Part shown: positions 36,757 through 42,136 of the stretch, one piece after another
Layout of the letters: each line of letters starts with the position of its first letter
Position numbering within the stretch: the stretch's first letter is position 1
From: Acidobacteriota bacterium
GTDB taxonomy: Bacteria > Acidobacteriota > Terriglobia > Terriglobales > Acidobacteriaceae
Direction: 5' to 3'
Assembly (NCBI GenBank): GCA_003225055.1
Contig: QIAU01000129.1
Coordinates: forward strand, 1 to 64,000
DNA length: 64,000 nucleotides
The notes under the pieces: generated by a model
Seen by the model: only the letters and a program-made list of their open reading frames with translations
What the model was told of the DNA's origin: nothing
Database searches by the model: none
Program-made: the position numbers and the translations under genes

Positions 36757-36776
36757 CAATTGCCAATTGGCAATTG
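36757..36776. repeat. 20-base perfect palindrome after murD
   Basis: CAATTGCCAATTGGCAATTG starts on the first base after the murD stop codon and is its own complement. Related AATTGGCAAGTGG sequence follows near 36807-36820. Confidence 0.7.
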
Positions 36777-36874
36777 GAAAAACGCACCAGGAACCAAAGC
36801 TGCAAATTGGCAAGTGGCGCTGGACCATTGAAAATCTCTTCTGGCTCGGTTTCCCCCCGACTATCCCTGCATGC

Positions 36875-37966
36875 ATGGCTAAGCGCGTCAGTGTCGATCG
36901 CTGGCTGTTTGTGGTCACGCTCCTCCTGGTATTCGGCGGACTGGTCATGGTTTTCAGCGCCTCGGCGGTCATGGCCAAGGAGCGCTACGGATCGCCGTAC
37001 ACGTTCTTGATCAAGCAGGCGGCTTGGGCTGCGGCGGGAATCTTATGCATGCTGTTGGGCATGCGGATCGATTACCGGCGCCTGAAACATCCCGCGATTG
37101 TGTTCTCCCTGCTCGGGGGCACGATGTTGATGCTGATCTCGGTCTTCTTTCTGGACCGTGCGCACGGCACCCATCGCTGGATCCACTTTGGATCGTTCTC
37201 GTTCCAGCCGTCCGAAGTGGCCAAGCCCGCGCTCATCCTTTTCCTTGCTTATTTCTTAGAGAGCCGAACTAAAACTATGGATGACTGGCGCAACACGCTG
37301 TTGCCGGCAGTTGCGCCCACGCTGCTGTTCCTCGGCCTGATCGTCTTTCAGCCCGATCTCGGGACAGCCATTGCCTGCGCTGCTATTACAGTATCGATAC
37401 TCTTTATTGCGGGGATGCGCATGCGTTACTTCGGATACGCGTTCCTCGCAGCTATTCCGGCTTTGTACATCCTCATTTTTCACGTGAGCTACCGGCGAGA
37501 TCGCATTCTCGCTTTTCTCAATCCGTATGCTGACCCGCAAGGACGCGGGTTCCACATTATTCAGTCGCTGATCGCGGTGAGCACGGGCGGCGTTACCGGA
37601 CTGGGGCTGATGGAAGGAAAGCAGAAATTGTTCTACCTTCCGGAGCCCCATACCGACTTCATCTACGCAGTGACCGCCGAGGAATTCGGGCTGGTGGGGG
37701 CGATCTTCATGGCTGCGCTATTTGCCGTGTTCCTGTGGCGCGGGCTGCGAACTGCGGCCAGGACCGACGACGTGTTCGGACGTTACCTGGCGGTGGGAAT
37801 AAGCAGCATGATTGTCTTGCAGGCGTTCATCAACATCAGCGTCGTGCTTGGACTGATGCCAACCAAGGGCATCCCTCTGCCCTTTGTCTCCTATGGTGGG
37901 TCTTCGATATTTGTGACGTTGGCGTGCGTCGGGGTTTTGTTGAACATCACCCGGCAGACGGAATAA
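36875..37966 (+). CDS. ftsW: Septal peptidoglycan polymerase FtsW
   Basis: A 363-residue SEDS-family glycosyltransferase with about ten membrane helices; partner of FtsI. Seen: MVFSASAVMAKERYGSPYTF, GTHRWIHFGSFSFQPSEVAK, FQPDLGTA (catalytic Asp), LPEPHTDFIYAVTAEEFGLVG and GIPLPFVSYGGSS. The frame is open to 36767, but ATG at 36875 gives the normal N-terminus; the upstream part is spacer repeat sequence. No strong ribosome-binding site is visible. Confidence 0.94.
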   Translation: MAKRVSVDRWLFVVTLLLVFGGLVMVFSASAVMAKERYGSPYTFLIKQAAWAAAGILCMLLGMRIDYRRLKHPAIVFSLLGGTMLMLISVFFLDRAHGTHRWIHFGSFSFQPSEVAKPALILFLAYFLESRTKTMDDWRNTLLPAVAPTLLFLGLIVFQPDLGTAIACAAITVSILFIAGMRMRYFGYAFLAAIPALYILIFHVSYRRDRILAFLNPYADPQGRGFHIIQSLIAVSTGGVTGLGLMEGKQKLFYLPEPHTDFIYAVTAEEFGLVGAIFMAALFAVFLWRGLRTAARTDDVFGRYLAVGISSMIVLQAFINISVVLGLMPTKGIPLPFVSYGGSSIFVTLACVGVLLNITRQTE

Positions 37967-38051: not shown

Positions 38052-38792
38052 TCAGTGGACTTCGACGACGCGAGCCAGCGCCGTTTTTAGCTCCTGCGCC
38101 TGGAAACCGAACGGGCCGGGCTTACTCTTGTAGGCGACTCGGCCGGTGGCGTCGATCAGGTAAAGGCGGTCGGGCCAGGCGGTGTACTGACGCTCGGTTG
38201 AGTTGCCGAACTCATCCAGCACGGCAGGAAATTGTATTCCCAGCTTCCGCACGCAGGCGCCAGCAACCAAGGCGCGTTCTTCCTCGCTCTTCGGACTGGC
38301 GAACACTACCTTATCTTTTATGTTGCTCTGCATCTGCCAGACGTCACTGGGATGTGCTTCCGTGATGTAAACAACCAGGAAGGCGACTTGCTTGCCGTAC
38401 TGTTCGTAAAGCCTGTTGAGGGCGGGAACCTCCCGCCGGAACGGCGGTCAGGTATAGCTTCCAAAGACCAGCACGACCGGCTTTCGTTGGCGGGAAAACT
38501 CGGACAACTGTACCTGCGCGCTCTTGTCCAGCTGTACTAAAGAAAAATCAGGAGCCATGTCGCCAACCTGCAGCCTTCCGGCGCGAGCGCGTGTCCACAA
38601 GCTTTCAAATGGGAGCACGAGAAACGCCACCGGACCAGGCAGGCGGGCCATGACTCGGGCAAAAGTTTCGGAACCTTGACGCATGACTCCGAACAGGGCG
38701 CCGCAGGCCAGTACCCATGCGATGAGGAGTGCGACGAATACTTTGATCAGCACTCGCGCCGCAGGCTTCAGCCTGAAAGTGTGGTTCGTCAC
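38052..38792 (-). CDS. Deiodinase-like thioredoxin-fold selenoprotein (in-frame UGA)
   Basis: A single frame of 246 codons is interrupted only by one UGA (38450-38448, codon 115), which falls in FGSYT-UGA-PPFRREV. This is the redox site of the iodothyronine-deiodinase family, where Sec or Cys stands. The family pattern continues unbroken after it: ALNRLYEQYGKQVAFLVVYI then TEAHPSDVWQ, PDRLYLIDATGRVAYKSKPG then PFGF. A membrane helix (VLIKVFVALLIAWVLACGALF) anchors the protein; APDFSLVQL begins the thioredoxin fold. A SECIS-like hairpin follows the UGA. GTG 38792 (GGAAAAG upstream) is favoured over TTG 38816. It lies antisense between ftsW and murG. Its role is likely redox or peroxide chemistry; iodothyronines are improbable substrates. 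Confidence 0.85.
38421..38437 (-). promoter_or_regulatory. Bacterial SECIS-like hairpin
   Basis: On the minus strand, ten bases after the UGA, GGCGGGA-GGT-TCCCGCC forms a perfect 7-bp stem with a GGT loop. The loop begins 17 bases after the UGA and has G in its first positions, fitting the known bacterial SECIS rules (apical loop about 16-37 nt downstream, G early in the loop). An alternative stem CCGCCG/CGGCGG lies right after the UGA. Confidence 0.7.
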
Positions 38793-38981
38793 AAGGTCTT
38801 TTCCAAATATCGACAACAGATAATATGCGCCCCCACAGCAAGGTGACGCGATTATAGGTGGCCGGAAAGGAGGATCAATAATGCGAAAGTATTAGGCGTA
38901 ATTTCCCGGATGATTTCGCCGGTAAAATGGCCGATCGACTCGTTCTAGTCATTTTCGGTCGTTTCCTTTTATAGTCACTGC

Positions 38982-40061
38982 ATGCGAGCCATTCTGGCGG
39001 GGGGTGGGACGGGCGGGCACGTCATTCCGGCGCTGGCAATCGGGCACTGCCTCAAACAGCTGTACGGAACCCAGGTGTTGTTCGTCGGCACGGCGCGGGG
39101 TATCGAAACCCGTCTGGTGCCGAATGCCGGGTTCGCTCTGCGACTGGTGCAGGTTGGAGCTTTGAAGAACGTGAGTCTGGCCATCCGTTTGAAAACCGCT
39201 CTCGACCTTCCGCGAGCAATTTTTGAATCCTCACGCATCATTTCCGAATTCCGGCCGGATGTCATGATCGGGGTGGGTGGTTACGCCTCGGGACCGGCGA
39301 TGCTGGCGGCCGCGTTACATAGCGTGCCGACGGTAGCTTTTGAGCCGAACGTGGTGCCGGGATTCGCCAACCGGCTGGTGGCCCCCATGGTGGCGGCAGC
39401 GGCGGTCCACTTTGAAGAGACCGGTCGATACTTCCGACGATTCCAGGTAACCGGAGTTCCGGTGCGGCGCGCATTTTTTGGTATTGCCGGGAAGAGGACG
39501 GGTGCGCCGCGTCCCACTCTGCTGGTTTTTGGCGGAAGCCAGGGGGCACACGCGATCAATCAGGTCGCGATCGAGTCTCTGGCGGCGCTGCGGGCGCGAG
39601 TCCCGGAACTCTATATCATCCATCAGACCGGCGAGCGCGACTATAATGACGTTCAAGCGGCTTATCTGGCGGCGGGCGGGTGTGCGGAAATCTATCCCTT
39701 CATCGACGACATGCCGGGGATGTTTGCGCGCAGTGACCTGCTGCTGTGCCGGTCCGGAGCGAGCACCGTGGCGGAAGTGATGGCGGCGGGTAAGCCAGCC
39801 CTTTTCGTCCCCTTTCCGCGAGCCGCCGACGATCACCAGAAACGCAACGCGGAATTGCTGGAGCGCGCGGGAGCAGCCGTGATGTTGGAAGAGGCAAGTA
39901 TGAACCGCGAGCGGCTGGTCGAAAGCGTGGGGGCGCTGCTGGGAGATCGGGTACGCTTGGAGAAGATGTCAGTGGCGGCACGGTCGCTAGCCCATCCCGA
40001 TGCGGCCAGGGAGATCGCGGAGATGACGGCGAGATTGGCGGGGGTAGCGCGGAGTTCGTAG
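38982..40061 (+). CDS. murG: UDP-GlcNAc transferase MurG (lipid II synthase)
   Basis: A 359-residue GT28-family enzyme on the inner face of the membrane. Seen: the Gly-rich loop [87 protein letters not shown] and [13 protein letters not shown] at 38982. It is separated from ftsW by the antisense deiodinase-like gene, so it likely has its own promoter (TATAGT near 38971). Confidence 0.96.
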
Positions 40062-41544: not shown

Positions 41545-41662
41545 GAGGCGGCTGCGCCTAGGTAAATTCTCGAAACCAACCGCTTCTTCCTTCCGTATTA
41601 AACCCATGGTTGACCAAAGGCGACCCTGGCCGTCTAAGAGGGCAGAGGGCGAGCAAAAGGCT

Positions 41663-42136
41663 ATGGCATCCACTAAGACTCTATATTGGATAGCGTTAGG
41701 CGTTCTAGCTGTTTCATTGGGGTCATCGAATATGGGCCGGAACCTGGCCTGCAAGGCTTCGGCGGTCGTAGATCATCTGACGGCTCGGGCCGTGCCCTAT
41801 GTTGCTGCGGTCGAGATGGCGCTGGGGCGGACCCAGGCGGGGTATGCACATTTGCAGGCGCATGCGGCGCGTGTCCAGGCTGAGCAGGCGCGGATAGAGG
41901 CTGCTCAGGCTCGGCTGCAAGCCGAAATGGCTCGCGAGCAGTTCCAGGACGTTTGGATGTCGAATCGCGAACGGTTCGAGGTTTTGGACCGCAAGGTAAT
42001 AGTGCCGAACGTGGTGGTTGACGGGCCGGATGTCAGGGTTACTGGTCCTGAGCACCTGATTGTTTGTCCCCGCACCAAGGTGCGACTCGCGATGCCAGCC
42101 GCCCCCCAAGTGAACATCATGCAGGACCCGATTTAA
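41663..42136 (+). CDS. Membrane-anchored coiled-coil protein of unknown function
   Basis: A 157-residue protein between murC and ftsQ. It has one N-terminal hydrophobic segment (LYWIALGVLAVSLGSSNM), an Ala/Gln/Glu-rich helix likely to form a coiled coil (about residues 60-100, repeating QAxxAR), and a C-terminal beta-like part (NVVVDGPDVRVTGPEHLIVCPRTKVRL). ATG 41663 gives the anchor near the N-terminus; 41606 is an alternative. Family not recognised; the position suggests a cell-envelope or division role. It takes the place where ddl stands in E. coli but is not a ligase. Confidence 0.6.
   Translation: MASTKTLYWIALGVLAVSLGSSNMGRNLACKASAVVDHLTARAVPYVAAVEMALGRTQAGYAHLQAHAARVQAEQARIEAAQARLQAEMAREQFQDVWMSNRERFEVLDRKVIVPNVVVDGPDVRVTGPEHLIVCPRTKVRLAMPAAPQVNIMQDPI

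Follow-up and report, generated by a model that had tools for sequence, protein, structure and literature searches.

The minus strand of the window (the whole stretch of 64,000 nucleotides that was analysed, from a soil bacterium of the phylum Acidobacteriota) very probably encodes a membrane-anchored selenoprotein of the deiodinase type, in which selenocysteine (Sec) would be inserted at residue 115 through SelB and an RNA hairpin. Its animal relatives strip thyroid hormones of iodine. Judged by sequence comparison and a predicted structure, the bacterial protein most likely functions as a selenol-based reductase or peroxidase that is tethered to the membrane and built on a deiodinase core. 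Gene callers cut the gene at the UGA codon, and thus a conserved selenoenzyme is easily overlooked.

Bacterial deiodinase-like selenoproteins as such are not new, as the earlier note had rightly stated. They have been known since 2005, when four sequences were reported from the Sargasso Sea and a redox role unrelated to hormones was already proposed (PMC1088965). In the open-licence literature, no paper was found that joins Acidobacteria, deiodinase, and selenocysteine. The new elements here appear to be an acidobacterial clade with a distinct UPPF motif, a resolving cysteine that may have changed its position, and an operon of the relatives that is informative.

The Locus and Its Reading Frame

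The gene forms a single frame on the minus strand from 38792 to 38052, and its sole break is the UGA at 38450-38448, embedded in FGSYT-U-PPFR exactly as the earlier note had described. When the UGA is read through, the coding part extends from 38792 to 38055 and yields a product of 246 residues. Translation probably starts at the GTG at 38792, and an upstream in-frame TTG at 38816 is a possible alternative start. The locus and its surroundings comprise the following features:

38052..38792, minus strand: very probable deiodinase-like selenoprotein gene; GTG start at 38792, UGA as Sec codon 115, TGA stop at 38054-38052, 246 residues
38851..38878, minus strand: sigma-70-like promoter match TTGATC-16-TATAAT upstream of the gene, a consensus match only
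36767-37966, plus strand: ftsW, neighbour of the gene
38982-40061, plus strand: murG, neighbour of the gene

The gene occupies the interval between ftsW and murG, on the strand opposite to both and overlapping neither. The description of the gene as antisense inside a dcw cluster holds for its strand and place, but it does not extend to the family. At every homologous locus examined, ftsW and murG were absent from beside the gene, and the dcw position is peculiar to the window genome or its lineage. A link to dcw as a clue to function was rejected, since no relative examined has this position in common. Within the same cluster of the window, murC and the dcw gene that follows it flank an open reading frame of 176 residues (41606-42136), whose product has recurring stretches that are rich in Ala, Gln, and Arg and look helical.

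Plain calling of open reading frames splits the gene into two pieces of 122 and 93 amino acids, as had been anticipated for standard annotation. Exactly these pieces would result if translation really ended at the UGA and the locus were either a pseudogene or a pair of independent short genes, a reading that is very improbable in view of the conservation described below. The UGA also interrupts the active-site motif of a fold that is predicted as continuous and with high confidence, which argues against a true stop.

Decoding of the In-Frame UGA

The UGA at codon 115 is almost certainly decoded as selenocysteine. Seven lines of evidence agree on this reading: the Sec machinery, the conservation of the UGA, the synonymous constraint on the hairpin codons, the divergent hairpins of distant members, the purifying selection, the co-occurrence with selB, and the TGC form of the gene in the genome G255. 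Two features of the sequence are central here:

38448..38450, minus strand: in-frame UGA, Sec codon, residue 115, aligned with Sec170 of mouse DIO3; all 66 distinct close homologues have TGA here
38421..38437, minus strand: bSECIS apical hairpin GGCGGGA-GGU-UCCCGCC, 7 bp; assigned by geometry and by synonymous constraint on the hairpin codons

A genome without the Sec machinery would have spoken against the selenoprotein, according to the earlier note. The search of the window genome (7.4 Mb, 98.7% complete) returned selA, selB, and selD, located on three different contigs, together with a tRNA-Sec with the anticodon UCA. The selD gene carries an in-frame TGA of its own (G000:C256:82082-83050, locus L155), and the selenophosphate synthetase is probably itself a selenoprotein here.

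The second observation named as adverse was TGC, TGT, or random lesions at this codon in related strains. The close homologues, defined as 66 distinct sequences of at least 50% identity, all have UGA at the Sec codon, as do most of the distant ones, and neither another stop (TAA or TAG) nor a frameshift occurs at this codon among the homologues compared. A pseudogene or a sequencing error was rejected, as the UGA is conserved across dozens of independent assemblies. Both halves of the gene are under purifying selection, because the median dN/dS equals 0.22 upstream and 0.11 downstream of the UGA, values that are rough as dS is near saturation. The uniform UGA and the selection on both of its sides are hard to reconcile with a true stop. 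The selenocysteine reading withstood both checks that the earlier note had named.

The sole close homologue with cysteine, encoded by TGC at the Sec codon, is found in G255 (locus L086), a genome in which selB was not detected. Other Cys-type members of the family also exist, and their cysteine occupies the UGA position. Across 298 sampled genomes of the same bacterial order, the UGA gene is present in 57, i.e., about a fifth, and selB accompanies it in 55 of these, versus 79 of the 241 genomes without the gene (Fisher p = 2.8e-20, a value that ignores shared ancestry). The two exceptions are G117 and G167, in which the UGA gene was found and selB was not detected; the gene of G167 is a fragment, and the missing selB probably reflects draft gaps in both cases.

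Reading of the UGA by a suppressor tRNA as another amino acid is extremely improbable. Nothing was found in its favour, and the homologues with Cys at the position, the presence of the Sec machinery with tRNA-Sec(UCA), and the conserved bSECIS all stand against it.

The Hairpin Downstream of the UGA

The published rule for bSECIS elements allows a spacing of 16-37 nt, a loop of 3-9 nt with G in its first two positions, and a stem of 4-16 bp (PMC13188914). In the window gene, the hairpin GGCGGGA(GGT)TCCCGCC begins 10 nt past the UGA, with a distance of 17 nt from the UGA to the apical loop, and its GGU loop and 7-bp stem agree with the rule. The stem, loop, and distance given in the earlier note were thus reproduced. 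The hairpin alone was rejected as proof: of all 1776 TGA trinucleotides in the window, 7 are followed by a hairpin that fits these limits and has a perfect stem of 7 bp or more, and the folding z-score of the hairpin against shuffled sequences is only -1.9. What raises the hairpin of the window gene above chance is the UGA in 66/66 homologues together with a synonymous constraint limited to codons 119-125. At these hairpin codons, the codon entropy is 0.29 of expectation versus 0.92 at 71 other conserved positions. The lowest-entropy windows of seven codons in the gene all cover or overlap the hairpin, and codons 119-125 are the lowest.

Distant members of the family keep the same hairpin geometry with other stem sequences and a spacing of 15-21 nt; examples are GAAGATC(GGT)GATCTTC and CCGGGCC(CGTGT)GGCCCGG. 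In L121, the top pair of the hairpin shows a compensatory change from A-U to C-G. No hairpin was found at the usual place in the TGC form of G255, nor, under the simple geometric rule, in L113 and three distant members from Chloroflexota (L177-L179).

According to the proposed mechanism, SelB would recognise the hairpin directly downstream of the UGA, bringing in Sec-tRNA(Sec), and the ribosome would then insert selenocysteine at residue 115, a step for which the comparative evidence is strong.

Family, Fold and Membrane Anchor

That the protein belongs to the family with the deiodinase fold is practically certain. The match to Pfam PF00837 (T4_deiodinase) reaches E = 1.7e-36 and 126.2 bits, above the curated cut-off of 27, and together with the Sec machinery and the invariant UGA it supports the deiodinase-like selenoprotein proposed in the earlier note. 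The Pfam families AhpC-TSA and Redoxin also match. The NCBIfam model NF038285 (deiodinase_rel, 347 positions) scores 193 bits over residues 75-240, under its cut-off of 250 bits, and the protein aligns to the second half of that model only. A search of plasmids returned just distant thioredoxin-like proteins and one deiodinase-like protein of Mycolicibacterium.

38058..38579, minus strand: thioredoxin-fold deiodinase domain, residues 72-245; Pfam, structure matches, and AlphaFold model
38682..38765, minus strand: N-terminal transmembrane helix, residues 10-37; helix in the predicted model

Among the solved structures, mouse DIO3 is the best match by sequence (8e-26), followed by DIO2 (1.6e-22). 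The AlphaFold model, built with 63 aligned homologues, has a mean pLDDT of 95.2, and its top structural matches are DIO2 and DIO3 (TM normalised to the target of 0.82 and 0.80). The likeness to the mouse enzymes (PDB 4tr3, 9h48) thus includes the best sequence and fold match, a single N-terminal membrane helix, and the core of Sec, Thr, Tyr, Glu, His, and Trp. The position of the SECIS is different, within the coding region in the window gene and in the 3′ UTR in the mouse deiodinase genes. The ResA/TlpA-type thiol-disulfide oxidoreductases are also membrane-anchored and of thioredoxin fold; however, the window protein does not have their CxxC, and its match to them is much weaker than to the deiodinases. 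In structural matching, ResA-type proteins and peroxiredoxins rank below DIO2 and DIO3.

The membrane anchor had been presented as a peculiarity of this protein. The helix itself is predicted, but an anchor is not unusual, since the animal deiodinases are anchored too (PMC9141512). In 58/66 homologues, the net charge before the membrane helix is greater than after it, and by the positive-inside rule such a flank suggests that the N-terminus lies inside and that the catalytic domain is extracytoplasmic.

Active Site and Proposed Chemistry

The active-site string FGSYTUPPFR places Sec at the redox position of the thioredoxin fold. In the alignment with mouse DIO3, the residues Ser167, Thr169, Sec170, Tyr197, Glu200, His202, Trp207, Arg225, and Arg260 are kept, and the catalytic core tested (S167/T169/U170/Y197/E200/H202) is identical throughout. 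The equivalents of six other residues are absent: Cys168 is replaced by Tyr, Asp211 by Ser, His219 by Pro, Cys239 by Phe, Tyr257 by Trp, and Arg275 by Pro. The roles of the DIO3 residues are described in the literature, and animal enzymes mutated at several core residues lose activity (PMC7506546, PMC9141512). The chemical core is therefore deiodinase-like, and the hormone-binding and resolving residues differ. Because the equivalents of D211, H219, Y257, and R275, proposed to act in hormone binding or proton relay, are absent, the protein was not classed among the iodothyronine deiodinases. Its natural substrate is probably something other than an iodothyronine, since the positions that grip the thyroid hormone in the animal enzymes have diverged.

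A true dehalogenase is conceivable but unlikely. Such a bacterial enzyme would reductively remove iodine or another halogen from aromatic substrates, through halogen bonding as proposed for the animal deiodinases. The retained core of Sec, Thr, Tyr, Glu, His, and Trp, several residues of which are needed for activity of the animal enzyme (PMC7506546, PMC9141512), and the nearest solved folds, DIO2 and DIO3, agree with such an activity. The replacement of the hormone clamp Arg275 and Tyr257, as well as of Asp211 and His219, disagrees with it, and the genome context points to redox and selenium metabolism rather than to halogen metabolism.

38253..38255, minus strand: Cys180, helix 170-184, candidate resolving Cys; invariant in 66/66 of the close clade; model

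Nearly as probable as not is a peroxiredoxin-like selenoperoxidase or reductase, in which Sec115 would reduce peroxides, Cys180 would resolve the oxidised enzyme, and an AhpD-like or thioredoxin-like protein would serve as the reductant. The Pfam matches to AhpC-TSA and Redoxin and the invariance of Cys180 in the close clade speak for it. Most distant Sec members do not have Cys180, which speaks against it, and the residue is also missing from the FGSCTU members with Cys beside Sec (L118, L122, and L125). In the close clade, Cys180 stands out by alignment as the candidate for resolving oxidised Sec115.

For a selenol-based reductase or peroxidase built on the deiodinase core, the following course may be envisaged. 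Sec would act within the Ser/Thr/Tyr/Glu/His/Trp network which, by alignment, is shared with animal deiodinases. Its selenolate would most likely attack a peroxide or a polarised halogen or heteroatom on a small substrate, and the oxidised Sec would then be reduced, with Cys180 in the following helix as the putative resolving residue.

Gene Neighbourhood in the Relatives

In 12 relatives (L142-L146, L148-L154), the gene lies downstream of selB and of a gene for an AhpD-like protein with a CPYU motif. Where the fetched stretch is long enough, the order is selD-selA-selB-CPYU-DIO, and L154 shows it from selB onwards only; in this operon, two likely selenoproteins stand beside the machinery for their own decoding. 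These cases come mostly from one clade and are not independent events. In G155, the gene is divergent from selD-selA-selB. The CPYU-DIO pair also occurs without selB in the fetched stretch (L041/L106, L160), and in G255 the Cys-form deiodinase adjoins an AhpD-like protein with CYYC. The AhpD-like protein matches TIGR01926 and the CMD family and is likely itself a selenoprotein.

The CPYU-DIO pairing suggests a redox chemistry, of peroxides or thiols, shared by the two selenoproteins. The repeated adjacency, including its Cys/Cys version in G255, is a further point for the selenoperoxidase, and the AhpD-like partner is a concrete lead to function. Against this, the catalytic domain is predicted to be extracytoplasmic and the AhpD-like protein has no obvious signal, so that an AhpD-like protein in the cytosol would be poorly placed to reduce the domain directly. 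An acidobacterial relay of two selenoproteins, the AhpD-like CPYU protein and a membrane-anchored enzyme with a deiodinase core and a relocated resolving Cys180, is a speculative and rather improbable proposal; if true, such a selenium-dependent relay could typify the bacterial enzyme ancestral to the animal deiodinases.

In the window genome, the AhpD-like and sel genes are located away from the deiodinase-like gene. An AhpD-like gene was observed there at G000:C94:28531-28962 (locus L162 1300-1941), with an in-frame TGA, a CFYU motif, and a match to TIGR01926; its product is likely a second selenoprotein of this genome.

Relation to Known Deiodinases

The window protein shares with the bacterial deiodinase-like selenoproteins the Pfam family (PF00837), a bacterial SECIS, and Sec at the redox position. 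Two reviews tabulate the motif of this bacterial family as UxxC, whereas the window protein has UPPF as in animals, with its invariant Cys in a later helix; this contrast is drawn from the reviews' tables only. Bacterial proteins that share the UPPF site of the animal enzymes, some of them with the full FGSCTUPPF, lend themselves to assays that distinguish dehalogenase from peroxidase activity, and they bear on the role of the deiodinase fold outside thyroid-hormone metabolism.

In the trees, which sampled three bacterial phyla, the mouse enzymes lie closer to other acidobacterial and proteobacterial groups than to the window clade. The AU tests gave p values of 0.14-0.48, and the grouping of mouse with the window clade gave p = 0.0555. 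It is not claimed that animal deiodinases are nested in one bacterial subgroup, as the AU tests leave the alternatives standing (p 0.14-0.48).

Two further observations concern individual members of the family. The acidobacterial selenoproteins L118, L122, and L125 carry FGSCTUPPF, an active-site string identical to that of mouse DIO3, including the Cys beside Sec. The deiodinase-family protein L182 from Chloroflexota has AGT (Ser) at the Sec position and is possibly a redox-inactive member.
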